Source: Comamonas sp. Y33R10-2 (lineage in GTDB: Bacteria > Pseudomonadota > Gammaproteobacteria > Burkholderiales > Burkholderiaceae_C). Taken from it: a stretch of 64,000 nucleotides of DNA. Below the pieces are notes generated by a model. It did no database searches, was not told the origin of the DNA, and saw only the letters and a program-made list of their open reading frames with translations. The DNA is taken from positions 3,534,001 through 3,598,000 of the forward strand of contig NZ_CP079925.1 of the NCBI RefSeq assembly GCF_019355935.1, read 5' to 3'. The position numbers were made by a program, and so were the translations under genes. This document shows positions 32,129-46,015 of this stretch, one piece after another (the first letter of the stretch is position 1; each line of letters begins with the position of its first letter).

Positions 32129-32719
32129 TCAGTCGTCAAAAAGACCGAGATAGGAAAGACCGTTGTAGCGCTTGTCTGGCGCGGTGATGAGCTGGGTGGG
32201 GTCGGCATAGACGAACATGGCATTGGCCTGATGCAGGCCCTGTGATGCGCAGGCCTGGATGATCTGCGCGAGGGACTCTTCACTGGCCAGGGTGCTGTGG
32301 CCCACGATCTCTGCAATGGAGACAGCTTGCGGCAGCCAGATGACCAGCAGCAAGTCTTCGTCATACAGGTAGGGGCTGCATATGTCCTGGCAAAAGCCGC
32401 AGCCGGTGACATCGTGGCTAGCGCTTTCAATGTCTTCGACTTCCAGCGCCCAGTAATCGTCTGAGTATGCAAAGTACTGGCCAAACGCTTCTTCATTGAG
32501 CGTGGTGTTGCCGATCCAGAAGTGCAGGGCGGAGAAAGGCGCTGGCGGTGGAGTGGGTCCTAATTCATCCACCCAGCCAAACAAAGTGCCGGGCTTGAGC
32601 TGGTGTCGCTTTTCCAGTTCAGGAAAGCCGCCGGTGGGCGTGCGGTTCAAAGCCTCATCGACTAGCGCCTTGCGAAAGGCCAGCGAATAAGTTTGGGCTG
32701 TTTTGGGGTCAGACTTCAT
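32129..32719 (-). CDS. Imm22-like immunity protein with N-terminal helix-turn-helix-like segment
   Basis: About 196 residues from ATG 32719 (ATG 32743 is also possible). Residues about 10-48 (YSLAFRKALVDEALNR ... KPGTLFGWVDELG) resemble the helix-turn-helix of IS3-type transposase orfA proteins. The rest resembles the immunity 22 family: LHFWIGNTTLNEEAFGQYF, an acidic patch (YWALEVEDIES), CGFCQDICSPYLYDEDLLL and a C-terminal YADPTQLI. Imm22 proteins neutralise toxins in polymorphic-toxin systems. No toxin gene is in the window. The family assignment is by pattern only. Confidence 0.5.
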   Translation of the reverse strand: MKSDPKTAQTYSLAFRKALVDEALNRTPTGGFPELEKRHQLKPGTLFGWVDELGPTPPPAPFSALHFWIGNTTLNEEAFGQYFAYSDDYWALEVEDIESASHDVTGCGFCQDICSPYLYDEDLLLVIWLPQAVSIAEIVGHSTLASEESLAQIIQACASQGLHQANAMFVYADPTQLITAPDKRYNGLSYLGLFDD

Positions 32720-33356
32720 CGCGCAGTCCATAGTGCTGGACAACCAGTTTGTCCAGCCGTTCCGGGTAGTCCCAGAAGGCTTCTTCCAGCTTCTGAAGCC
32801 GCTCGTGTTCGTCCTCTGTCAGCAACATCGGCAAGTCTGACAGGGCAATATCCCCGGGCGCTTCTTCCAAGCGTTGCACGCTGGCATACATGTTCTGCAA
32901 GCCAGCGCGGGTCGCGGTCGACCCTATGGCTTGCAGCGCTTGCAAGGCCATTTGATAGTTCTCAAACCCCCAGTTGCCGAGAAACTGCACAAAGCCGCCG
33001 TTGTTCACATCGGCTTCCATGCGCCACAGCGCGACCAGCTCATATTGCGTGGTTGAAATCTGCCGGATGTCCCAGCCCACAGATTGCAGCGCGTCCATCG
33101 CCTGGCGGTAGAGCTGGTCTTGCTCCATAGCCCAGACGCTGACCATGCCCTCTGGCGCGGGTGGCCACAGTGCGGGCCAGTTCAGTCCGTGGTCATCGTC
33201 GGTCAGTACCCATTGCAGGCGCTGCGCGGGCGTGGCTTTTTCTACGCGAATATGGCGCTGGATAGGTTCGGCCAGCTCACGCCCATCGCTCAGAGTAAGC
33301 CAGATGGTGTGCTCGTCAATACGAACATGGGTGATGCGCTTGCTTTGCGGGTCCAT
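32709..33356 (-). CDS. DUF2442-DUF4375 (DMP19-like) fusion protein
   Basis: 215 residues in two parts. The N-terminal ~65 residues (RITHVRIDEHTIWLTLSDGRE ... RLQWVLTDDDHGLNWPAL) match DUF2442. The C-terminal part (LWRMEADVNNGGFVQFLGNWG ... LQALQAIGSTATRAGL) matches DUF4375, a DMP19-like acidic domain found among immunity-type proteins. It starts 3 bases after the stop of the unknown lipid-operon gene and overlaps the Imm22-like gene, so it links both groups of genes on one transcript. Possible roles: immunity or DNA-mimic regulator. Confidence 0.65.
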   Translation of the reverse strand: MDPQSKRITHVRIDEHTIWLTLSDGRELAEPIQRHIRVEKATPAQRLQWVLTDDDHGLNWPALWPPAPEGMVSVWAMEQDQLYRQAMDALQSVGWDIRQISTTQYELVALWRMEADVNNGGFVQFLGNWGFENYQMALQALQAIGSTATRAGLQNMYASVQRLEEAPGDIALSDLPMLLTEDEHERLQKLEEAFWDYPERLDKLVVQHYGLRDEV

Positions 33357-33359
33357 GGA

Positions 33360-34298
33360 TCAGCTTTGCGCTTCGTTGTGCTCCATCACGGTGTCGGCGG
33401 CTTTGTGCATTTTGGCCAGCTCACGTGCAGGAATGGGCAACTCGCCGTTGGCCATGCGCGCTAGCAGCGAATGCAGCATCTCTGTGGACAGACCATGCAA
33501 TACCAGTCTGTAAGCTGCATACAGCGTGGATTCCGGCACCATCGGGTGCTTGTTGTTGAGCAAGACGAGGTGCTCAGGCGAGGCCAAAATTTTGGCGCAG
33601 TAAATGCCGAGGGTTTCATCGAGCTGCAGCGAGTTGCTGGCACGCCAAAAGTCGTTATCGGTCAGTAGCAGCTGGTAGATGGGCGTGTACAGCTCAATCG
33701 CGCTTTGCAGATCAATGACGTTGAAGCGCCCGCGCGGCATGTCTTCGAGCTTGAGGGCGGGCTCGTGAATCATCGAAAAATCAGGCTCGGCCACGGGCAC
33801 CAGCTCTTGCCCGTTTTCGCGCAGGGCCTTGTTGAGGCGGATCACAAAGTTGAAAAGGTTTAGGTCGTGTTTGAGGAAGAGTTCTTCCTTCACATCATCA
33901 ATCTCCATGGGCATTAAGGGCGAGGTGCTTACCTTGGTGGGCGAGTTAGCCGCCACAAATTGCAGCACCTGAGAGCCCAGATGAAAGTGCCGCATGATGA
34001 GCCAGTTGGCTTCTGGTGAGAGAAACTTCTTCATGCCAAACGCCAGCATGCGGTGCAGCAAAATCGAGTGCGACCAGCGCTTGGGCAGAAAGATTTTCAG
34101 CGCCTGAATGAGGATCATCGACAGACGCGCCATGGGCCGCATCGCAGGCAAAAAGAACTGGCGCGAGCTGCTGCTGCAGTCGCGCAGCCAAGCGGCTTTT
34201 ACATCATCTGGCAGCGGTGTGCTTTGGTCTAGATAAAGCGCCAGCCAAGGGCTGGGGTCGCGCTCGTCCCAGACATGGTCGTTGAATTCGTTCTTCAT
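33360..34298 (-). CDS. Conserved-looking protein of unknown function, last gene of lipid-type operon
   Basis: 312 residues without signal peptide. The N-terminal half has an amphipathic, partly hydrophobic stretch with several His (about 60-110: LLHRMLAFGMKKFLSPEANWLIMRHFHLGS), which might associate with the membrane. The C-terminal half is helical and acidic. I recognise no family. Good ribosome-binding site (GGGAGA) before ATG 34298. It lies 24 bases after the KAS III fusion gene and 3 bases before the DUF2442 gene, so it is part of the same transcript. Confidence 0.65.
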   Translation of the reverse strand: MKNEFNDHVWDERDPSPWLALYLDQSTPLPDDVKAAWLRDCSSSSRQFFLPAMRPMARLSMILIQALKIFLPKRWSHSILLHRMLAFGMKKFLSPEANWLIMRHFHLGSQVLQFVAANSPTKVSTSPLMPMEIDDVKEELFLKHDLNLFNFVIRLNKALRENGQELVPVAEPDFSMIHEPALKLEDMPRGRFNVIDLQSAIELYTPIYQLLLTDNDFWRASNSLQLDETLGIYCAKILASPEHLVLLNNKHPMVPESTLYAAYRLVLHGLSTEMLHSLLARMANGELPIPARELAKMHKAADTVMEHNEAQS

Positions 34299-34322
34299 CA
34301 GGCCGTCTTCTCCCTAGATTTT

Positions 34323-36254
34323 TTATTCAGGCAGCACATGCTGAAACTGCATCAAATACATGGCCGCAGTGTGGCGCGCCGTTTGCAGTATGGCTTGCTG
34401 GGCTGTGCCTTCTGTGTCCAAGTCCAGCGCCAATTGCACGGCCATCAACCAGCGCTCCAGGTGGTGCTCATCATTGGCGCCGTGGTATTCCAAGAATCGA
34501 AATGCCTCGGGCGGCAAGGGCAGGGCGGCGCGCAGCAGCGGCAGCAAGCTGGGCACAATGCGCTGACCCGTGCCTTCAATGATGTAGATGGCACCCAGCA
34601 GGCCGATGGGGTTAGGCGTTGCGGCCAAGCCGTGCAGATAGGCGTTGAGCGCTTCACCGCCGGGGTTGCGGCGCAGGCGGGTGATGTCAGTTTCAGTGCC
34701 GCCAGCAGTCAAATAATCCTTGTGCAGAATCTTGAAGTCATGCTGCTCATCATCGGCGTGCAGATCGATCAAGCCGGCCAGCGCTGCATAGTCGCCTGTC
34801 AGCGATGCAGCGCCTTCGCGCATCCACAAACTACCCTCGCGCACTTGCGGAATCCAGTGGCTCATCCAGCGCACATAGTCGGCGCTTTGCAGCTCGCGGG
34901 TGCGAATGCGGCGCAGCAGCGGTGTGCGCCAGACATTGCTGCGGTAGTCCTGCCAGATGCTGGCCAGCTCGGTAAGTAGCGGGGCCAGTTGCTGCGGTGC
35001 GGCAGCTGGGTCGTGAGGAGCCGCGATGGTGGAGACATCGGGCAGAGCATCGTTAGCGATGATTTCAGTGCTTGCCGTTTTGTGAGGGAAATTGGCCTGC
35101 AGTGCTTGTTGGACGGGCGTATCCAGCTCTACTTCCCATAGCATGTAGCCTGCAGTGAAGCGGCCAGATTCTGGGATGAAGCAAAGCACGGTGTCGCCCG
35201 CTTTCAGGCGCTTGCCTTCTTTTTGCAAAAACTCCGACATCATGATGAAGATCGACGCTGCGCCGGTGTTGCCGCGCCATGCCAGATTGCTCCACCAGCG
35301 GTCTCGCGGGATGCTCAACTGGGCTTTTCCCAGCAAGTCATCGACCACGGGGATGAAGCGCTCTGACGAGTAGTGGCACAAAAAGTGGTCAATGCCGCGC
35401 TCGGGCACCCAGCCCTTGTGGGCAAGGTCGGCATACTCGTGAATGCAGACATCAAACAGGTGGGGTAGCAAGCGGATGTCTTGGCGCAAAGACAGCGCGC
35501 CAGCGGCTTCTGCATCGCCCCATGCGGGGAAGTCCAGGTGGCTTTTGCTGCGGTCTGGAGTCAGGCCCAGTTGCATGCAGACTGGGTAGTCACCTGCAAA
35601 ACTGCGTTGATGAGTCCATTTGAGTTTGAGGCGCAGGCCGTTGGCTTGCGGCAAGGCCTTGGGGCCGCCTAGCAGCACGGCGCCTGCGCCATCGGACAGC
35701 ATCCAGCGCAGAAAGTGGGCGTCAAAGTCGGTGTTGTAATCCTGCGCGGCAAAACGCGAGCGTTTGAACAGGCGCGACGGCATCTCGCTGGCCACAGACA
35801 GTGCCAGTGAATGCGCGCCGCTTTCCACCGCCATGGCGGCGGCCTGCATGGCGCCTACGCTGGCTGCGCACACGCCGTGTACAGACAAGGTTTCCATGGG
35901 TGGCGCAGCCATCTCGCCTTGAATCATGCTGGCAAAGCCGGGCATCAGCGCATCGCCGCCCGACGAGCCGCTGGAGAGATAGCCCACATCAGCGAGCGTT
36001 TTGCCAGCCAGCGCCAGTGTTTCTGTAATGGCACCTGCCGCCATTTGCGTGTTACTGAAGACTGTCTGGCCAGCGCCATCAATGGCGTAGTAGCGCTGCT
36101 GGATGCCGTTTTCCGCCAGGATGCGTTGCTTGATGCGCCCGGAGATGCGGTTCAGCGGTGCCACATAGGCATCCATGCCTGCGTTATCCACCGGAGAGCC
36201 GGGCAGGAACATGCCGGCAGATTGAAGATAGACGTTTGAATAGGCAACAGGCAT
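34323..36254 (-). CDS. KAS III (FabH-like) fused to heme-oxygenase-like diiron domain
   Basis: 643 residues. Residues 1-385 are a thiolase-fold ketoacyl-ACP synthase III-like enzyme with its catalytic triad: Cys129 (VHGVCAAS), His294 (LCHYSSERF) and Asn329 (RGNTGAAS). Residues about 420-643 form a helical heme-oxygenase-like domain with candidate metal ligands: His499/Glu503/His505 (LHADDEQHDF), Glu560 (IYIIEGTG) and the HxxxDxxH motif His591-Asp595-His598. This is the pattern of UndA-like non-heme diiron oxidases/oxygenases, which decarboxylate or oxidise fatty acids and amino acids. A single polypeptide thus could make an acyl-thioester and then oxidise it. Product unknown. Confidence 0.82.
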   Translation of the reverse strand: MPVAYSNVYLQSAGMFLPGSPVDNAGMDAYVAPLNRISGRIKQRILAENGIQQRYYAIDGAGQTVFSNTQMAAGAITETLALAGKTLADVGYLSSGSSGGDALMPGFASMIQGEMAAPPMETLSVHGVCAASVGAMQAAAMAVESGAHSLALSVASEMPSRLFKRSRFAAQDYNTDFDAHFLRWMLSDGAGAVLLGGPKALPQANGLRLKLKWTHQRSFAGDYPVCMQLGLTPDRSKSHLDFPAWGDAEAAGALSLRQDIRLLPHLFDVCIHEYADLAHKGWVPERGIDHFLCHYSSERFIPVVDDLLGKAQLSIPRDRWWSNLAWRGNTGAASIFIMMSEFLQKEGKRLKAGDTVLCFIPESGRFTAGYMLWEVELDTPVQQALQANFPHKTASTEIIANDALPDVSTIAAPHDPAAAPQQLAPLLTELASIWQDYRSNVWRTPLLRRIRTRELQSADYVRWMSHWIPQVREGSLWMREGAASLTGDYAALAGLIDLHADDEQHDFKILHKDYLTAGGTETDITRLRRNPGGEALNAYLHGLAATPNPIGLLGAIYIIEGTGQRIVPSLLPLLRAALPLPPEAFRFLEYHGANDEHHLERWLMAVQLALDLDTEGTAQQAILQTARHTAAMYLMQFQHVLPE

Positions 36255-36359
36255 AAATCCTCGACAGGTTTTTACGGCTTACGCAAACAAGGATGCACCA
36301 AGGACTGCTGCCTTTGGGGCGAAGCGCTTGTCTGAACCTGATTTGCGTAAGTCATGGTT

Positions 36360-37292
36360 TTATTCCACAGCGTCTGCTGGCATTTGCGGCTGGGTTCTTG
36401 CCGCGGGCCAGACTAGACCCAATACAAACACGCGACCCATATAGGGCAGCAGGCCACCCTCGTTCAATGCGGGTGTAACTCGCTGGCGGTAAATGCGCTC
36501 ATGCAGCGTGGTCAGGTCAGACCAGTGGGCATGCGGGCATTCATGGTGCGCGGTGTGCAGGCCAATATTAAAAAGCAGGGGGTTGACCAGCCCCTCAAAG
36601 TTGCGCGCGTAGTTCAACTCGATACCGGGAGTAGCGCGCTGCGCTCTGGAAAGTGGCCTGCCATCGGCATGGGCGTGCTGCAGATAGTTGGTGGCCAGCA
36701 GCCAGTGCAGGCCGTGCAGTTGGGGGACGATGATGAAGATCAGCGCTTTTTGCCAGTCAAGCCACAGAAAGAATCCCCAGCTACCCAGCCACAGTGCGTA
36801 CTGCCCCATGCAGTAGCGGAATGCGCCGGGCCAGCGAAGGCGCAGATTGTTCACCCAGCGAATAAACAGCGGGTACAGCACCAGCCCGGCTTGAATAGGG
36901 TGGATGAGGTAGCCCCAGAGGTGGTTGGTGTCACCGCCCCATTCGGGCCGGTAGGTGCGGGCCATATCAGGCGGGCCATGGCGAAAGCGGTGATGGTTGG
37001 CGACATGGGCTGGCCAGAACACAAAAGTGGGGTGGCCTTGCAGCATGGTGAGCCAGTAGTCAGTAGCGCGGTTCGTCCACCGGCCCCACCACATGCGCAC
37101 ATGGGTGTGGTTGTGGTGAATGACGCCGATGCCTAGCGTCAAAAAAAGCTCAATGCCGTAGAGGATGAAGTTGAAGCCATGCACCCATTGCCACCAGACA
37201 ATCAGCGGCAGTATCAACATATAGAACACGGACTGCCAGTCGCGCCAGTGGCGCAAAGTGGGCAGCATGCGCTGGCTGGGGTGTTGGCTCAT
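36360..37292 (-). CDS. Membrane fatty acid desaturase
   Basis: 310 residues, about four membrane helices. Three His clusters of the desaturase superfamily are visible: HHNHTH (about 59-64), HVANHH (about 96-101) and HTAHH (about 245-249), expected to bind the diiron centre. It would desaturate or hydroxylate an acyl chain or related lipid. ATG 37292 overlaps the stop codon of the upstream sterol-desaturase-like gene by 4 bases (ATGA), showing translational coupling. The KAS III fusion follows after 105 bases. Confidence 0.88.
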   Translation of the reverse strand: MSQHPSQRMLPTLRHWRDWQSVFYMLILPLIVWWQWVHGFNFILYGIELFLTLGIGVIHHNHTHVRMWWGRWTNRATDYWLTMLQGHPTFVFWPAHVANHHRFRHGPPDMARTYRPEWGGDTNHLWGYLIHPIQAGLVLYPLFIRWVNNLRLRWPGAFRYCMGQYALWLGSWGFFLWLDWQKALIFIIVPQLHGLHWLLATNYLQHAHADGRPLSRAQRATPGIELNYARNFEGLVNPLLFNIGLHTAHHECPHAHWSDLTTLHERIYRQRVTPALNEGGLLPYMGRVFVLGLVWPAARTQPQMPADAVE

Positions 37293-38035
37293 TCAGCGGC
37301 AGGTGCGCGGGTGTAGGCGGTCTTGACCTTGGTGCCCATGATCTGATCCATGAAGGGCAGCGCAAATCCATAGTTGCCCGCAGGGCGTGCGTGGTGAAGA
37401 TGATGGCGGCGGCTTGCGGCAAGCGGGTGCGTGTCAGACACCTTGGGGAAAAAGTCGTAGTTGGCGTGGCCGATCAGGTTGAGGATGAGGCTCAAGACTG
37501 GCACAGAGGCCAGAGACCAGAAATAGAAGTCATGCACCAGCATGGGCAGCAAAATGATGTTGCCCAGCATCATTGCCTCAATGGGGTGAAAGCTGTAGGT
37601 GGACCAGGGTGTTGTCACCACAGAGCGATGGTGGTCACCGTGAAAGCGCACGAGGCTGCGGGTGTGGAGCAGGCGGTGGTTGATCCAGAAGTGCACATCA
37701 TTCCAGATCAGCAAAATGATGATTTCTAGCGCTATACGGCCTGCGCTGGAGCTGGGATCCAAGTGTGCCCAGTCTAGTTGCAAAAAGCCCCAGGGCACGA
37801 TCATGCCTATGCCAAATACCAAAATTGAATGAAAAGACTGACGCCATTCGCGGCGCAACTGATCGGGCTTGAGAGGGCGTGTGTCCAGCACTTGGCCAAT
37901 CCCAAGTCGAGCAAGCGTGGAAGTGAGCGTGCCCATGATCAGGCCGCCCAGTAGATAAATGCCGCCGAAAAAAACCAGCCCCAACACCATGACTTGCCAA
38001 GCGTTGAGTTGCGTGAACCAGGTACCAGCGTCCAT
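37289..38035 (-). CDS. Sterol desaturase/fatty acid hydroxylase family protein
   Basis: 248 residues with about four membrane helices. His clusters of the FA_hydroxylase superfamily: NHRLLH (about 119-124), HGDHH (132-136) and HHLHH (211-215), plus His115 and His190. Family members hydroxylate or desaturate lipids using diiron and O2. First gene of the lipid-type operon, translationally coupled to the desaturase gene. Upstream region 38036-38292 must hold the promoter, but I see no clear one. Confidence 0.88.
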   Translation of the reverse strand: MDAGTWFTQLNAWQVMVLGLVFFGGIYLLGGLIMGTLTSTLARLGIGQVLDTRPLKPDQLRREWRQSFHSILVFGIGMIVPWGFLQLDWAHLDPSSSAGRIALEIIILLIWNDVHFWINHRLLHTRSLVRFHGDHHRSVVTTPWSTYSFHPIEAMMLGNIILLPMLVHDFYFWSLASVPVLSLILNLIGHANYDFFPKVSDTHPLAASRRHHLHHARPAGNYGFALPFMDQIMGTKVKTAYTRAPAAE

Positions 38036-38292: not shown

Positions 38293-39282
38293 TTATTGGG
38301 CGGATATGCTTTGATCGCGAATGATGGTGCCCAGCGCCTTCACATCCTGCTGAATGCGGTTTTTCAAACCTTCGGGCGAGCTGCCCACGGCTTGCCAGCC
38401 TTGCATGGAGAGTTTTTGGCGCATTTCAGGCGTGCGCACAATGTCGCTAACTGCAGCAGCAAGCTTTTCGACATGAGCCTTAGCCATGGATTTGGGTGCG
38501 GCTACGGCATTCCAGATTTCCAGATCAAAGTTGCCTACGCCCAGCTCTTTCATGCTTGGCAGGCCGGGCGCCAGTGGGCTGCGTGCCTCAGAAGTCACGC
38601 CAATGCCGCGCAGTTTGCCCGCTTGAATCTGTGCCATGGCCAATGCGGGGGGCAGCATGGACAGCTTCAAGTCGCCGCCCTGAATGGCGTTGAAAACTTG
38701 CGGGTAGCCGGTGTAGGGAACATGCACGGCTTTAATAGCTGAGCGGCTCTTAAGCAACTCCATACCCAAATGGCCCACGGTTCCAACGCCCGGCGAGCCA
38801 TAGCTCCATTGGTCGCCAGCTTTAGCGGCTGCTTCAAAGAAAGCCTTGCCTTGAGGGGCAGATGTAGGAGCTACCAGCACTAGCGGAGCTACGCCAATCA
38901 GGCTGACGGGTTGCAAGTCTTTGATGGGGTCATAGCGCACACTGGGGTTGAGCATTTTGGCAATGGTCATGTTGCCGTTGATCATTACGCTGAAGGTGTA
39001 GCCGTCGGCCTTGGCCACATACTCACCGGCAATGTTGCCGCCAGCGCCCACGCGGTTTTCCACGACGATGGTTTGCCCCAGTTTCTTCTCAAGCGGCTCG
39101 GCTAGTGCGCGAGCTGTTAAGTCGGGTGAAGAGCCTGCCGGGAAGCCAACAATCAGGCGTAAGGGCTTGTCGGGCCAGTTGTCTGCGGCCATCGCGGCTG
39201 GCGTGAATGCACTAGTCATCAAAGCAGTGCCTGCGGCAATCAAGCTGTGGCGAGACAGATGTTTCAAAGTGCGTTTGTGCAT
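38293..39282 (-). CDS. Bug family tripartite tricarboxylate transporter substrate-binding protein
   Basis: 329 residues. Signal peptide (about 1-31, ending PAAMAAD), then the Bug/TctC fold with WPDKPLRLIVGFPAGSSPDLTAR, VENRVGAGGNIAGEYVAKA and YGSPGVGTVGHL motifs. Bug proteins bind carboxylates or other small metabolites in the periplasm; the cognate membrane subunits are absent here, as is common for orphan Bug genes of Comamonadaceae. ATG 39282 gives a proper signal peptide; the upstream start at 39345 does not. Confidence 0.92.
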   Translation of the reverse strand: MHKRTLKHLSRHSLIAAGTALMTSAFTPAAMAADNWPDKPLRLIVGFPAGSSPDLTARALAEPLEKKLGQTIVVENRVGAGGNIAGEYVAKADGYTFSVMINGNMTIAKMLNPSVRYDPIKDLQPVSLIGVAPLVLVAPTSAPQGKAFFEAAAKAGDQWSYGSPGVGTVGHLGMELLKSRSAIKAVHVPYTGYPQVFNAIQGGDLKLSMLPPALAMAQIQAGKLRGIGVTSEARSPLAPGLPSMKELGVGNFDLEIWNAVAAPKSMAKAHVEKLAAAVSDIVRTPEMRQKLSMQGWQAVGSSPEGLKNRIQQDVKALGTIIRDQSISAQ

Positions 39283-39350
39283 GGCAGGTCTCTTTTGTTT
39301 TGTTGGAGTGACAGTCCGCGTTGATGATTGTGAGGACAACGCCAAAAATG

Positions 39351-39379
39351 AAAAAACCCGGAAATTATCCGGGTTTTGT
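39351..39379 (-). terminator. Terminator of rpoH
   Basis: AAAACCCGGA (39353-39362) and TCCGGGTTTT (39368-39377) form a perfect 10-bp stem with a 5-base loop (AATTA); the A run on the left is a T run on the minus strand. Lies 46 bases after the rpoH stop. Confidence 0.85.
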
Positions 39380-39424
39380 CTTCAGCATTTCAGCCTTTTC
39401 AAAGCCGTTGGCGCAAGTTGGTGA

Positions 39425-40369
39425 TTACGCAAACTCAGCCAACGCTTTTTTCATCTTTTTCATAGCAGCCACTTCAATCTGGCGAATGCGCTCGGCGCTA
39501 ACGCCATACTCGGCAGCAAGATCGTGGAGCGTCATGCCGCCAGAGCCGTCATCGTTGACTTGCAACCAGCGCTGCTCCACGATGCGGCGGCTGCGGTCAT
39601 CCAGACCTTCAAGCGCCAGTGCCAAGCCATCCGTTGCCAGATGGTCACGCTGGCGTGACTCGATCATGGCGGTAGGCTCATGGTTGGCATCAGCCAAGTA
39701 GGCGATAGGGCCGTAAGCCTGCTCTCCATCATCGCTGGGCGAAGGGTCTAAAAGAACGTCGCCACCCGACAGGCGGGTTTCCATCTCCATGACTTCTTCG
39801 CGCTTGACGTTGAGCTTGGCAGCCACAGCGTCAATTTCTTTTGGAGTGAGGGTCTCCCGCATAACGGGTTCGCCGTCAGCCATCGCAGCATCTGACTTGA
39901 GCTCGTTTTTCATCGAGCGCAGGTTGAAGAACAGCTTGCGCTGGGCCTTGGTCGTCGCGACCTTGACCATGCGCCAGTTTTTTAGGATGTATTCGTGGAT
40001 CTCAGCCTTGATCCAGTGCATGGCGTAGCTGACCAGACGCACACCCTGATCGGGGTCGAAACGTTTGACAGCCTTCATTAGGCCCACGTTGCCCTCTTGA
40101 ATCAGGTCGCCGTGGGGCAGGCCGTAGCCCAAGTATTGGCGTGAAATGGACACAACCAAACGCAGGTGAGACATCACCAGACGCCCAGCGGCATCTAGAT
40201 CGTTGTTATCTTTAAGCTTACGCGCATATGCCTGCTCTTCCTCAAGGGTGAGCATGGGCAGACGGTTGGCGGCCGAGATATAGGCATCCAGGTTGCCCAG
40301 CGGAGGTACCATCGCCCAAGGGTTAGAGGGTGCCAAGGCTGTAGCAATGGAGCCGGAGGCGATTGTCAT
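39425..40369 (-). CDS. rpoH: RNA polymerase sigma-32 factor RpoH
   Basis: 314 residues. Region 2 (DLIQEGNVGLMKAVKRFDP, VRLVSYAMHWIKAEIHEY), the RpoH box after region 2.4 (KAQRKLFFNLR, the hallmark of heat-shock sigma factors) and region 4 (LHDLAAEYGVSAERIRQIE) are all intact. It directs transcription of heat-shock genes. ATG 40369 is preferred over the upstream ATG 40399 because the protein then starts MTIASGS. Upstream lies a CIRCE operator and a sigma-E-like promoter. It is followed by a terminator. Confidence 0.95.
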   Translation of the reverse strand: MTIASGSIATALAPSNPWAMVPPLGNLDAYISAANRLPMLTLEEEQAYARKLKDNNDLDAAGRLVMSHLRLVVSISRQYLGYGLPHGDLIQEGNVGLMKAVKRFDPDQGVRLVSYAMHWIKAEIHEYILKNWRMVKVATTKAQRKLFFNLRSMKNELKSDAAMADGEPVMRETLTPKEIDAVAAKLNVKREEVMEMETRLSGGDVLLDPSPSDDGEQAYGPIAYLADANHEPTAMIESRQRDHLATDGLALALEGLDDRSRRIVEQRWLQVNDDGSGGMTLHDLAAEYGVSAERIRQIEVAAMKKMKKALAEFA

Positions 40370-40400
40370 TGCGGGTTTCCTTTCTTCCAAGAATCTCATG

Positions 40401-40439: not shown

Positions 40440-40772
40440 CGGCCTTTTGTAGGTTCAGAGAATTGACCGCAGTTGTCGATTCTTCTTGAGTTTTGTACTT
40501 TTGTTGGTTTTGACTGCGTTTTTCGTTGATCGGCACTCAGTTTCGAACTAATGGCACTTAGTTCTGAACACTTGATACATCTCTCAATGTGGATCTAGCT
40601 AGGCGTTGTTGCAAAAAAGGAGTTCGTCTCAAATGAGATCTGTGCTGCAGAGCCACGCTAACTAGAAAGGCCACTCGGCTTGACGTCTAAACGCGGTAAT
40701 GCCTGACGCCTGCGTATTCACTTGCTTGGACAATTGCACGACCAATCATCATGGATGCTCTCGCATTTATTC
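40440..40772. other. Intergenic region between rpoH and the DNA-repair cluster
   Basis: About 330 bases between divergent genes. T-rich and low in structure at 40480-40530; it should also contain the promoter of the exonuclease gene. Imperfect repeats of GGCACT-TAGTT/CAGTT occur (GGCACTCAGTT near 40532, GGCACTTAGTT near 40554). No gene recognised. Confidence 0.4.
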
Positions 40773-41813
40773 ATGCCAGATCTCATAACGCTGACGGATC
40801 GTGGCCTGTTTTGCCAAGCTGGAAACTTCTATATTGACGCTTGGAAGCCTGTACACAGAACCTTTGTCACCCATGGTCACGCAGACCATGCGCATACCGG
40901 CATGGATGAGTATTGGTGCGTACAAGAATGCGCCCCCATCTTGCAATGGCGACTGGGCGCCCAAAATTATCATTTCCTGCAATATGGTGAGCAAAGGAAG
41001 TTCGGCGATGTGACAGTGTCGCTGCACCCAGCTGGGCACATTCTGGGATCGGCCCAGGTGAGGGTGGAGCATCAGGGCGAAGTATGGGTATTTACAGGCG
41101 ACTTCAAACGCGACCCCGACCCTACTTGTGCGCCTTACGAGGTCGTGCCTTGTGATGTGTTTATTTGCGAGGCAACCTTTGCCTTCCCTATTTACGCTTG
41201 GCCCAACATATACCTAGAAATAGATCGTTTGGTGCAATGGGTCGATATGTGCGCGCAAGATGGGAAAGTAGCACTGCTGTATGCCTACAGCTTAGGTAAA
41301 GCCCAGCGCGTGTTGGCCCATCTCACAGGCAGGCTAGCTCAACCCGTGCTGCTTCACGGCAGTATGGTGCGCGGTGTGCAGGTATACCGTGATGCAGGTG
41401 TTTCCATGGCGTCCAGCCAGCCGCTGCTGGAGTTGCCAGAGGACACCAACTTGGCAGGTCGCTTGGTAATAGCGCCGCCATCTGCGCAGAATTCCGCATG
41501 GGTCAAACGCCTCAAAGCCTATGAGCATGCTATGGCATCAGGCTGGATGCAGGTACGTGGCAATCGACGTCGGCGCAATGTCCACCGAGGCTTTGTGATT
41601 TCTGACCATGTGGATTGGCGCACCTTGATTTCCACCATCCAAGCCACCGGTGCACGGCGTGTGCTGGCCACACACGGAAATACTGATTTATTGATCCCTT
41701 ATTTGCGGGACAACTTGGGGCTCCATGCCGAGCGCCTGCTCACCGTTTATGGTGATGAAGAAGGGCAAGAGCTGGCTGAGTCAAATGTAGTCGTTGAGGC
41801 GCCTGCCCCATGA
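40773..41813 (+). CDS. Ligase-associated DNA exonuclease (metallo-beta-lactamase fold)
   Basis: 346 residues. Metallo-beta-lactamase/beta-CASP-like nuclease with THGHADHA metal motif and further His/Asp (LHPAGHILGSAQV, FTGDFKRDPDP). It is the exonuclease member of the widespread ligase-helicase-nuclease repair cluster. ATG 40773 starts the conserved MPDLITLTDRGL; upstream starts at 40722 (TTG) and 40755 (ATG) are possible. Ends with a 4-base overlap (ATGA) into the ligase gene. Confidence 0.88.
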   Translation: MPDLITLTDRGLFCQAGNFYIDAWKPVHRTFVTHGHADHAHTGMDEYWCVQECAPILQWRLGAQNYHFLQYGEQRKFGDVTVSLHPAGHILGSAQVRVEHQGEVWVFTGDFKRDPDPTCAPYEVVPCDVFICEATFAFPIYAWPNIYLEIDRLVQWVDMCAQDGKVALLYAYSLGKAQRVLAHLTGRLAQPVLLHGSMVRGVQVYRDAGVSMASSQPLLELPEDTNLAGRLVIAPPSAQNSAWVKRLKAYEHAMASGWMQVRGNRRRRNVHRGFVISDHVDWRTLISTIQATGARRVLATHGNTDLLIPYLRDNLGLHAERLLTVYGDEEGQELAESNVVVEAPAP

Positions 41814-43474
41814 ATCAGTTCGCGTTGCTATACCAATCGCTTGATCAAGCCATTGGCACCAAAGCGCGCGAACATGCGCTCCAGCGCTATTTTTCTGAGG
41901 TAAGTAGCGCCGAAGCGAGCTGGGCTATTTTTGTGATTTCGGGCGGCAAAACCAATACTGGCCGCAATCGCATTGCGAACACCACGCAGTTGCGCGCTTG
42001 GCTTGGTGAGCTGGTGAAACTGCCGCATTGGATGGTGGATGATTGCTACCGGCAAGTCGGTGATTTGGGCGAGACCTTGGCGCTGCTGGTTGAAGCTCAA
42101 AGAGAGCAAGTGCAGATGGAGTGCGTGCAATTTCAGGGACAGGCAAATTGGCAGGTTCCGCACAATGACAGCACTTTGTTGCAATGGATTGAAGGCTTCT
42201 TGCTGCCTTTGGTGCACGAGCCCGAAACCGTTCGTAAGCAAGCTATTCAGTCGGCATGGCTGCAACTGGATGCTTGGCCACGGTTTGTGCTCAACAAGTT
42301 GCTCACCGGCTCCCTGCGCGTGGGGGTGTCTAAACGCATGTTGCAAACCAGCTTGGCGCCCTTGGCAGGCATAAGTTCTGCAGATATGGCGCATCGCCTG
42401 ATTGGCGAGTGGATGCCTACACCTGCCGCTTATGACGCATTGATGCATCCTGACACTAGTGCCTTGGTGCTGAACAAACCCTATCCGTTTTATTTGGCTT
42501 CGCCCCTTCAAGATGACTTAAGCAGCTTGGGCCTTGAGTCCGAATGGCAAGCTGAGTGGAAATGGGACGGCATCCGAGTTCAGCTCGTGCGCCGTGAAGG
42601 AGTGCCTGCGTATTTATGGTCACGTGGGGAAGAACGTTTGGATGGGCGCTTTCCTGAGCTGGAAATGCAAGCGCTTCATCTGCCTGTCGGGGTGGTGCTT
42701 GATGGTGAGTTGCTGGCATGGGATGCAGAAAACGCCACACCACGACCTTTTGTGGCATTGCAAAAGCGCATTCAAAAACGAAGCCCCAGCCCTAAGCTGC
42801 AAAAACAAGTTCCAGTACACATCTTGTTTTATGACCTCTTGGAGTTAGATGGCATTGACTGGCGAAATCGACCCTTGCAAATGCGCAGGCAAGCATTGGT
42901 AGATCTGCTTTCAAGCATGTCCACTCCGCAGCTAAAAATCTCTCCAGAGGTGGAGTTTGAAAGATGGGAGGAGTTGCATGGACTGCGAGAACTATCGGGC
43001 TCACGTAATGCTGAAGGCTTGATGCTTAAGCAGCGCTGCGCTCCCTACTTAGAAGGGCGTAGGCGTGGAGCATGGTGGAAATGGAAGGTCGACCCGTACT
43101 CCATAGACGCTGTGCTTATCTATGCGCAAAGCGGAAGTGGCCGAAGAAGCACCTTGCACTCTGACTACACCTTCGCGGTATGGAACGACACAGGTGCTTT
43201 GGTCCCCATCGCCAAAGCATATTCGGGATTGACCGATGCAGAGCTCAAATCCATGGACAAATGGATTCGCAGCCACACCATAGAGCGTTTTGGACCTGTG
43301 CGCTCGGTACAGCCCGAGAAAGTGTTTGAAATCGCCTTTGAAGCTGTGAACCGATCTAGCCGCCACAAGTCCGGTGTTGCGGTGCGTTTTCCGCGCATTG
43401 TGCGTATGCGTGATGACAAAACTGCTGCCCAGGCCGATCACTTGAGCGCGTTGCTGGCACTGTGCAAAGACTAA
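41810..43474 (+). CDS. ATP-dependent DNA ligase of the ligase-associated repair cluster
   Basis: 554 residues. Adenylation domain with the nucleotidyl Lys in KWDG (EWKWDGIRVQLV, Lys near 251), motif III (DGELLAWD), motif IV-like EGLMLK and motif V (WWKWKVD). N-terminal helical domain precedes it. Seals DNA breaks using ATP and is encoded next to its partner exonuclease and helicase. Translation coupled to the exonuclease by a 4-base overlap. Confidence 0.93.
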   Translation: MNQFALLYQSLDQAIGTKAREHALQRYFSEVSSAEASWAIFVISGGKTNTGRNRIANTTQLRAWLGELVKLPHWMVDDCYRQVGDLGETLALLVEAQREQVQMECVQFQGQANWQVPHNDSTLLQWIEGFLLPLVHEPETVRKQAIQSAWLQLDAWPRFVLNKLLTGSLRVGVSKRMLQTSLAPLAGISSADMAHRLIGEWMPTPAAYDALMHPDTSALVLNKPYPFYLASPLQDDLSSLGLESEWQAEWKWDGIRVQLVRREGVPAYLWSRGEERLDGRFPELEMQALHLPVGVVLDGELLAWDAENATPRPFVALQKRIQKRSPSPKLQKQVPVHILFYDLLELDGIDWRNRPLQMRRQALVDLLSSMSTPQLKISPEVEFERWEELHGLRELSGSRNAEGLMLKQRCAPYLEGRRRGAWWKWKVDPYSIDAVLIYAQSGSGRRSTLHSDYTFAVWNDTGALVPIAKAYSGLTDAELKSMDKWIRSHTIERFGPVRSVQPEKVFEIAFEAVNRSSRHKSGVAVRFPRIVRMRDDKTAAQADHLSALLALCKD

Positions 43475-43483
43475 GCACCTTCG

Positions 43484-46015
43484 ATGCAGCAGCCCAACCC
43501 AAAAACTTCCATCGCGAAAAAAGCTTGGGCACAAGCTCGGTCTCGCTGGCTGGAATGGCTTAAAGCCCAAGGCATTGCTCCTGCGCGATTTCAGCAGCAA
43601 GCGTGGCAAGCCTATGCGGATGGTCAAAGCGGTTTGATCAGCGCTCCCACCGGAAGCGGCAAAACGTTGGCGGCCATCGGCGGCCCCCTCATTGAAGCGT
43701 TAGCGCTTCATTCATCAAACGATTCAGGTCCGCAACGGGGCGTGCGCATTTTGTGGATCACCCCGCTGAGGGCGCTTGCTAGCGACACCACAAAAAATTT
43801 GCTTCACCCTTTAGAAGCCCTACTACCTCAATGGCGCACCGCAATGCGCACGGGCGATGCGAGCGCCAAAGACCGTAATGCTGCAAAAAAAGGGCAAGTG
43901 CAATTGCTGGTGACGACGCCAGAGTCGCTGGCCATTTTGCTCACTAGCGAAGCGGGCAGTGACAGCTTTCGCACGCTGCAGTGCGTGGTGGTAGATGAAT
44001 GGCACGAGTTGCTGCCCAGTAAACGTGGCGTCTTGCTGCAACTGAACTTAGCGCGTCTGCGGCGTTTGGCTCCTCAGATGCAGGTATGGGGGCTGTCAGC
44101 GACCATTGGCAATCTGGAGCAAGCCATGGATGTGCTGGTGCGAGAGCGTCGCGCCGAGGACCTGCACATCGTCCAAGACTCTCGCGTCAAAAAGTTTGAT
44201 TTTCGAACGCTTATCCCGCCGCAATCCGTGCGCATACCGTGGGCCGGTCACCTGGGGTTATCGAATATCGGCGAAGTGCTCAAGCTGGTACTTGCCAAGA
44301 CAAGCAGCATCATTTTTACCAACACTCGCGCTCAGGCTGAGCTGTGGTTCACAGCACTATCATCCGTGTGGCCGTTGGAAGAAAAAATGCTTGCGATTCA
44401 CCATGGCTCACTCGATCAATCCATGCGCCTTGAAGTGGAAAATGCTCTGCGTCAGCAAAGCCTACGTTGCGTGATCGCCACCAGTAGTTTGGATTTAGGT
44501 GTAGATTTTCCCGCCGTCGACTTGGTCATACAAATTGGCGGCGCGCATTCCGTTTCTCGCACTGTGCAACGGGCAGGACGCGCCAAACACCGCCCCGGCC
44601 TACCGGTGCAAATCACCACCGTGGCCACTCAGGCGATGGATATGTGTGAATTTGCCGCCACGCGTGATTTAGCCCAAGCCCAGAAATTTGAACGAAGTAC
44701 GCCTTTGCAGTTGTGCATGGATGTCTTGAGTCAGCACACCATGTCCATGGCATTGGTGGGTGGCTTTGATCGTGACGAATTGCTGGGCGAAGTGCGCACC
44801 ACCGCGTCTTATGCGCAACTGAGCGACTCCCAGTGGCAACAGGTGCTGGATTTTTTGGTCTATGGCGGCCAAGCCCTAGATGCCTATCCGCAGTATCGTC
44901 GCTTGGTGCGTGGCGAAGACAAGCGTTACTACCCCGCTGACGAAAAAGTCGCGCGCCGGCAGCGCATGGCCATTGGTACGATTGCCGAGCAAAGCATGGT
45001 CAAAGTGCAGTTTTTGCGCGGTGCTCGGCTGGGCAGCGTAGAAGAAGGATTTATCAGCAAACTGTCACCCGGAGATGTCTTTAACTTTGCGGGACGCAGC
45101 TTAGAGCTATTCCGGGTAGAAAACCTCACCGCTTGGGTTCGCAAATCGTCCAAAGCGGGCACGGTGACACCGTCTTGGACGGGAGGCTTTTTACCGTTTT
45201 CCACCCAAGTGGGGCAGCGTATGAAAGCGTTACTGGCCCAATCGACCAGCAGCGTGTCTAAGCAAAGCTCGCCGGAGATGCTGTATTTGCAGCCCTTGCT
45301 GCAATTACAAGCTGGTCGCAGCCATGTCCCCTCTGAGCATGAACTTCTGATTGAAGTCATCGCCACAGGCCCTGCGCGTAGACGCCAGGCTGGCACTGCA
45401 TCTTTAGGTCAGGCTTGGTTTATCTACCCATTCGCTGGCCGTGTGCTGCATGAAGGGTTAGCGCTGTTACTGGCTCAGCGGCTTTCAGTGCAACAAAAAA
45501 ACACCTTTGCGTGGGCATGCAATCACATGGGGTTAATGCTGGTGCCAAGCGTCAAAATCGATGTGCAGACACTGGACTGGAGTGCAATATTGAGCACGGA
45601 CAAACTAGAGGAAGACTTGGCTTTGGCGGTGAATTTTAGTGAGATCTCCAGAAGGCGATTTCGCGAAATTGCGCAGATTGCGGGGCTGCTTAACGCACGT
45701 ATTCCCGGCATGAGCTTCAATACAAGGCAGTTGCAGGTCTCCGCAGGTTTGCTGTTTGATGTGCTTAGCAAATATGACCCCAAGCACCTGCTACTTGTAG
45801 CGGCCCAATCAGAAGCGATAGAGCGCGATCTTCACCTTGGCGAATTGCAGCAGTGTTTGCAAAACTTGAGGCGCCAGAACATCGTTATCACCCATCCACC
45901 CAAGCACACACCGTTTTCTTTTTCTCTTTGGGCAGAGTCAATGCGCGGCCAATTGAGCAATGAAAGTTGGGCAGAGCGAATACGTCGAGCCGCCCAGAAA
46001 TTGGGCGAAACCTAG
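43484..46015 (+). CDS. Ligase-associated Lhr-type DEXH-box helicase
   Basis: 843 residues. Superfamily 2 helicase: Walker A SAPTGSGKT (about 54-62), DEWH box (VVDEWHEL), SAT motif (GLSATIG) and motif VI (QRAGRAKHRPG). C-terminal domains of the Lhr-core type. Acts with the exonuclease, ligase and PdeM in DNA repair (family knowledge). Starts 10 bases after the ligase stop; ends with a 1-base overlap with the pdeM start. Confidence 0.93.
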   Translation: MQQPNPKTSIAKKAWAQARSRWLEWLKAQGIAPARFQQQAWQAYADGQSGLISAPTGSGKTLAAIGGPLIEALALHSSNDSGPQRGVRILWITPLRALASDTTKNLLHPLEALLPQWRTAMRTGDASAKDRNAAKKGQVQLLVTTPESLAILLTSEAGSDSFRTLQCVVVDEWHELLPSKRGVLLQLNLARLRRLAPQMQVWGLSATIGNLEQAMDVLVRERRAEDLHIVQDSRVKKFDFRTLIPPQSVRIPWAGHLGLSNIGEVLKLVLAKTSSIIFTNTRAQAELWFTALSSVWPLEEKMLAIHHGSLDQSMRLEVENALRQQSLRCVIATSSLDLGVDFPAVDLVIQIGGAHSVSRTVQRAGRAKHRPGLPVQITTVATQAMDMCEFAATRDLAQAQKFERSTPLQLCMDVLSQHTMSMALVGGFDRDELLGEVRTTASYAQLSDSQWQQVLDFLVYGGQALDAYPQYRRLVRGEDKRYYPADEKVARRQRMAIGTIAEQSMVKVQFLRGARLGSVEEGFISKLSPGDVFNFAGRSLELFRVENLTAWVRKSSKAGTVTPSWTGGFLPFSTQVGQRMKALLAQSTSSVSKQSSPEMLYLQPLLQLQAGRSHVPSEHELLIEVIATGPARRRQAGTASLGQAWFIYPFAGRVLHEGLALLLAQRLSVQQKNTFAWACNHMGLMLVPSVKIDVQTLDWSAILSTDKLEEDLALAVNFSEISRRRFREIAQIAGLLNARIPGMSFNTRQLQVSAGLLFDVLSKYDPKHLLLVAAQSEAIERDLHLGELQQCLQNLRRQNIVITHPPKHTPFSFSLWAESMRGQLSNESWAERIRRAAQKLGET

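Follow-up and report, generated by a model that had tools for sequence, protein, structure and literature searches.

Described pathways and the Comamonas operon

Ketosynthases (KAS) of the StlD/DarB type belong to the dialkylresorcinol, isopropylstilbene and flexirubin pathways, and their products are 2,5-dialkylcyclohexane-1,3-diones. In published clusters, darA adjoins darB (passages in PMC3949708 and PMC3992019), and radical scavengers as well as bacterial signals are among the compounds of the dialkylresorcinol/cyclohexanedione class (passages in PMC3949708 and PMC4578411). Here, we analyzed a 64,000-nucleotide stretch (the window) of contig NZ_CP079925.1 from Comamonas sp. Y33R10-2, which has a genome of 3.84 Mb. 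The window contains an operon in which a KAS is fused to a heme-oxygenase-like (HDO) domain and is followed by a DUF6999 protein. We place this system as a DarA-less sister branch of the StlD/DarB pathways with an HDO-DUF6999 pair. Tentatively, we predict that KAS, HDO and DUF6999 together form a ring lipid from two fatty-acyl thioesters and then oxidize it, in place of DarA; this is a plausible but by no means assured reading.

The operon comprises four successive genes on the minus strand, running from 38035 to 33360:

37289..38035, minus strand: fatty acid hydroxylase (FAH), 248 amino acids; membrane fatty acid hydroxylase/sterol-desaturase-like enzyme (PF04116, E = 3.8e-21)
36360..37292, minus strand: fatty acid desaturase (FAD), 310 amino acids; membrane fatty acid desaturase-like (PF00487, E = 4.7e-16), overlapping FAH by 4 bp
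34323..36254, minus strand: KAS·HDO fusion, 643 amino acids (Pfam ACP_syn_III_C and PF14518)
35127..36254, minus strand: ketosynthase domain of the fusion, residues 1-376, catalytic triad C129, H294, N329
35040..35126, minus strand: flexible linker of the fusion, about residues 377-405; predicted local distance difference test score (pLDDT) below 50 at 381-405 in the predicted model
34323..35039, minus strand: HDO domain of the fusion, residues 406-643 (PF14518, E = 1.7e-9), candidate ligands E473, H499, E503, D506, E560, H591, D595, H598
33360..34298, minus strand: DUF6999 protein, 312 amino acids (PF22523, E = 1.4e-126), all-helical model

A first-pass annotation of the window had listed four genes at these coordinates, among them a sterol-desaturase-like and a fatty acid desaturase gene, and had named C129, H294, N329 and H591-xxx-D595-xx-H598; genes, families and residues are all present as claimed. 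It had called the genes tightly packed, which describes most of the spacing but not the gap from FAD to the fusion, which measures 105 bp, and its protein of unknown family proved to match DUF6999. It had also regarded the operon as undescribed. In agreement, no paper describing a KAS-HDO-DUF6999 operon was found in the literature searched, which covered open papers, and the word "ketosynthase" is absent from the main text of a 2026 review of HDOs (PMC13108848).

The fusion is widespread. Its protein had 6094 database matches; the best 120 listed covered it at identities of 70-100%, 119 of these carried both Pfam domains and 1 was partial, and the closest named relatives were from Comamonas. 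We then compared 80 loci, the best of 317 relatives that were confirmed when named genomes were scanned with a DUF6999 alignment. The order FAH-FAD-KAS·HDO-DUF6999 on one strand was retained in 76 of them. DUF6999 was present in 80/80 loci, FAH, KAS and HDO in 78/80 each, and FAD in 76/80. Two loci lacked both FAH and FAD (L072 and L131, the latter a 3.3-kb contig). In two Variovorax loci (L109, L118), FAD and KAS·HDO were missing at the locus and an FAD-KAS·HDO pair was located elsewhere in the genome; thus the operon is split up there with all parts kept. In a set of 100 relatives of the window genome, 42 have DUF6999; comparing the lists by eye gave these same 42 for the fusion, and the KAS part alone was matched in 2 others. 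This recurrence is far beyond chance, and with Comamonas, Delftia, Variovorax, Achromobacter, Bordetella and Pararobbsia the operon is spread over several families of Burkholderiales. A common lipid or signal may therefore have been overlooked in these bacteria.

Ketosynthase kinship and the absence of DarA

The closest solved relative of the KAS domain was StlD (E = 4.9e-59), which was also clearly the best of its structural neighbours, followed by AbyA1 and then by OleA and PqsD. The triad residues C129, H294 and N329 are common to the window KAS, the clade of stand-alone KAS and StlD, with H294 aligning to the residue changed to Ala in the StlD mutant 5gk2 (H302A). Many further residues are common to the window KAS and the StlD/DarB-type clade. 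Judged from its sequence, the window KAS is filed as a sister group of StlD/DarB and not as a member of NF005293, the model for StlD/DarB family beta-ketosynthases. The enzyme, labelled KAS III in the first-pass annotation, is not an ordinary FabH.

In a KAS tree of 34 rows, the 16 fused KAS formed one clade (support 100/100). KAS, HDO and DUF6999 also occur unfused, as neighbouring single genes, in G483, from another class, and in G077 and G717, from the class of the window; these three genomes are distant, and their split KAS branched outside the fused clade. All 19 fused or split KAS were separated from 14 StlD/DarB-type KAS without HDO by a branch with support of 94/100. Apparently KAS and HDO were fused once, and since the split genes adjoin in three distant genomes, the two proteins belong together.

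At the split locus of G483 (L142, 4697-9280), a protein with MFS, acyltransferase and AMP-binding parts is the neighbour of DUF6999, encoded on its strand and about 20 bases past it. It presumably resembles Aas and could be a sign of fatty-acid activation in the pathway.

Stand-alone KAS have a different partner. A protein of about 305 amino acids adjoined the stand-alone KAS at 12 of the 13 loci fetched, the 13th lying at a contig end, and in one such cluster (L150) DarG and DarH were found beside KAS. We call this protein DarA-like because darA adjoins darB in the published clusters. KAS matches at E <= 1e-20 were obtained in 19 of 274 genomes of the class; the fetched stretch held an HDO in 4 of these and none in the other 15. 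The DarA-like protein was present in 15 of the 274, exactly those with the stand-alone KAS, and in none of the 4 HDO-linked genomes. A chosen set of 12 genomes gave the same pattern: it was found in 3/3 stand-alone genomes and in 0/9 genomes with the KAS-HDO-DUF6999 module, whereas the DarA-DarB pathways have DarA. Because the DarA-like protein excludes the HDO-linked KAS in the sampled genomes, HDO and DUF6999 appear to replace DarA.

The window system thus resembles the StlD/DarB pathways, including DarA-DarB, in KAS fold, triad, many residues and the tandem arrangement of KAS with a further protein. It differs in having HDO and DUF6999, in the fusion of KAS to HDO, and in its NF005293 score, which lies below the cut-off.

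HDO domain and predicted reaction

UndA, one of the heme-oxygenase-like dimetal oxidases (the HDO family), performs oxidative decarboxylation on fatty acids. The window HDO passed the PF14518 cut-off (38.2 bits versus 28.9), as did the three split homologues. A PDB search with a four-row profile, read up to E = 1, returned 3dde (E = 2.1e-13) and, weakly, MboA (E = 0.22) and nothing else; UndA was not listed. All eight candidate ligands were invariant in 79/79 aligned rows and in the three split homologues.

Described HDOs carry E/D-x2-H in helix 1, a Glu in helix 2 and H-x3-[D/E]-x2-H in helix 3, and in CADD and SznF a loop separates both helix-1 ligands (passages in PMC11611611 and PMC13108848). 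The window HDO keeps the canonical helix-2 Glu and the helix-3 H-x3-D-x2-H ligands, which, with the PF14518 domain, it has in common with UndA, BesC, SznF, AetD, MboA and CADD. It is unlike them in its ketosynthase fusion, in helix 1, which reads H-x3-E-x2-D in 6/6 rows of the family, with Asp at the His position and a His four residues before the Glu, and in E473, an extra invariant Glu earlier in the chain. The controls were the 30 PF14518 matches that scored best among 299 genomes of the phylum; 25 of them gave correctly framed rows. Helix 1 was of the E..H form in all 25, which fall into only 4 sequence groups with 20 rows in one, and the position of E473 was variable. By composition, the window ligand set has three His, one of them displaced, together with four or five carboxylates, and forms a candidate dimetal site. 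The domain had been described as UndA-like, which is accurate no further than the Pfam family, given the altered first-helix pair and the structural matches.

Condensation followed by oxidation on one chain, as the first-pass annotation proposed, is the natural reading, and the adjoining split genes support the pairing. Its idea that a fatty acyl chain is made is less apt: as the KAS is a sister of StlD/DarB, it is a better guess that two acyl chains are condensed into a ring. On the whole, the earlier interpretation was right in spirit and is improved here.

For such a pathway, KAS would load an acyl group on C129 and condense a 3-oxoacyl with a 2-enoyl thioester to give a 4-carboxy-2,5-dialkylcyclohexane-1,3-dione, as for DarB, whose reported product carries the carboxylate on ring C4 (a passage in PMC5515871). 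HDO, with its predicted dimetal O2-activating site, would receive this product across the short linker. It would remove the ring C5 hydrogen together with the C4 carboxylate by an oxidative decarboxylation of the UndA type and so arrive at the resorcinol ring without a further step, with simple oxidation of the ring as the fallback. Since this loss of hydrogen and carboxylate would create the missing double bond in one step, HDO would be a chemically sensible substitute for DarA, and formation of the resorcinol in one step would explain why HDO is tethered to KAS. DUF6999 would assist as a partner enzyme or as a cofactor or redox helper, and in Burkholderiales FAH would hydroxylate and FAD desaturate the alkyl chains in the membrane. 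In its complete form, this amounts to a second, oxygen-driven route to dialkylresorcinols or their oxidized kin, with a one-chain synthase, a rewired diiron HDO that aromatizes by oxidative decarboxylation through the altered helix 1, and DUF6999 as a helical, possibly metal-binding partner, making a lipid widespread in Burkholderiales. We regard it as possible, though somewhat on the unlikely side when taken as a whole.

Several observations weigh against this proposal. NF005293 scored the window KAS at 307 bits against a curated cut-off of 450, and HDO-linked KAS reached 307-414 (5/5 tested) versus 544-602 for stand-alone KAS (6/6 tested). Position 107 is His in 13/14 stand-alone rows but F in 16/16 fused and F, F and L in the split rows; position 120 is Cys in 13/14 stand-alone rows but M in 16/16 fused and V, M and I in the split rows. 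D28, Q228, R257 and S322 are also unlike the stand-alone clade. With these positions changed, the condensation chemistry may differ, and F107 and M120, standing where stand-alone KAS have His and Cys, make the identity of the product uncertain. The four operon genes include no gene for an acyl carrier protein. The helix-1 pattern of the HDO is unlike that described for UndA or AetD. In the KAS tree, the long branch of L142 makes its exact placement unsure, and NCBIfam and Pfam gave no name for the four DarA-like proteins tested, so that this label rests on position.

The replaced His and Cys could also point to a KAS that condenses without cyclizing, for example to a beta-keto acid, with HDO decarboxylating or oxidizing the linear product to an alkene, a ketone or a volatile, which is near the idea of the first-pass annotation. 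OleA and PqsD, which come after StlD and AbyA1 among the structural neighbours, are in keeping with this. However, StlD is clearly the best match, many residues are common to the StlD/DarB-type clade, and HDO occupies the place that the DarA-like protein has in the sister clade; we consider a linear product quite unlikely.

Alternatively, KAS may still make the cyclohexane-1,3-dione while HDO hydroxylates, cleaves or desaturates the ring or a chain without aromatizing it, leaving an oxidized ring lipid for further modification by FAH and FAD. The same KAS phylogeny and DarA exclusion fit this scheme, HDOs catalyze many reactions beyond oxidative decarboxylation (passages in PMC13108848), and an altered ligand set could accompany a different reaction. 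E473 in particular may be the counterpart of an additional carboxylate that 3H/4C HDOs, for example the N-oxygenase SznF, have on the auxiliary helix (passages in PMC13108848 and PMC11611611). In the sampled genomes, however, HDO and DUF6999 stand in exactly for the DarA-like protein, which suggests that the same step is performed, and we rate oxidation without aromatization as unlikely, though still a serious candidate.

If the dialkylresorcinol proposal is true, dialkylresorcinol/cyclohexanedione biosynthesis would gain a branch that does without DarA, HDO chemistry would take in ketosynthase products and perhaps a new ligand set, and DUF6999 would have its first function. With split homologues and a single fusion polypeptide at hand, the proposal is directly testable.

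DUF6999 protein

DUF6999 is the constant third partner of KAS and HDO, more so than FAH or FAD. The window protein matched the family with 421.6 bits against a Pfam cut-off of 27, and distant members in L141, L157 and L142 passed as well. The model organism Caulobacter vibrioides has matches to PF22523 and also to PF14518. Many His, Asp and Glu residues, for example H104, H144, D145, D196, D227, H268 and E273, were invariant in 81/81 rows and also in the alignment with the distant members. The predicted model was all-helical (pLDDT 85.6; predicted template modelling score 0.82), and structure comparison of this model returned no matching fold. Our guess is a metal-binding or helper protein.

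The lack of a matched fold is also consistent with HDO and DUF6999 being regulatory, protective or carrier proteins that do not act on the KAS product. For HDO, a precedent is DtpC of Acinetobacter, which has been tied to protection from oxidative stress on drying and not to biosynthesis (a passage in PMC13232832). Against such a role stand the invariance of the eight candidate ligands in all rows and the fusion, co-occurrence and apparent replacement of a biosynthetic protein, which favour a pathway step; it is very improbable.

Membrane enzymes and surroundings

The histidine boxes of FAH (H120-x3-H124, H132-x2-H135-H136, H211-x2-H214-H215) were invariant in 79/79 rows and those of FAD (H60-x3-H64, H96-x3-H100-H101, H246-x2-H249-H250) in 77/77. 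Both thus carry the complete boxes of the membrane fatty acid desaturases and the fatty acid hydroxylase-sterol desaturase superfamily, and no NCBIfam model scored above its cut-off for either. Neither was found in the stretches of about 19-20 kb around the three split modules, or around the fusion of genome G019 (19 kb fetched), and at one locus (L160, genome G668) FAD alone of the two was found. Because split modules and the G019 fusion occur without them, FAH and FAD look like accessory additions to a KAS-HDO-DUF6999 core.

The gap between FAD and the fusion holds an extra element of about 89 bp (36264-36353) with imperfect inverted arms of 15 nt. It was absent in both aligned Comamonas loci, which have only 16-18 bp in that gap. 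The genome has another copy at a different place, 85% identical over 73 bp and flanked by two open reading frames that we take to resemble PhoH and YbeY. The element looks like a miniature insertion element.

Downstream of the operon, the stretch 32129-33356 holds a DUF2442-DMP19 gene, 3 bp after DUF6999, and an Imm22-type (DUF4284) immunity-like gene, the N-terminal part of whose product resembles, by eye, a transposase-type helix-turn-helix. Only some Comamonas have the DMP19 gene after the operon. Directly upstream (38293-40399) are a lone TctC-type receptor gene and the gene for the heat-shock sigma factor RpoH, a pair also found upstream in many Comamonas and Delftia loci and not in the Achromobacter or Variovorax loci. 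Farther on, three plus-strand genes (40722-46015) presumably form a cassette of a ligase-associated exonuclease, an ATP-dependent DNA ligase and a DEXH helicase, as their translations resemble these proteins.
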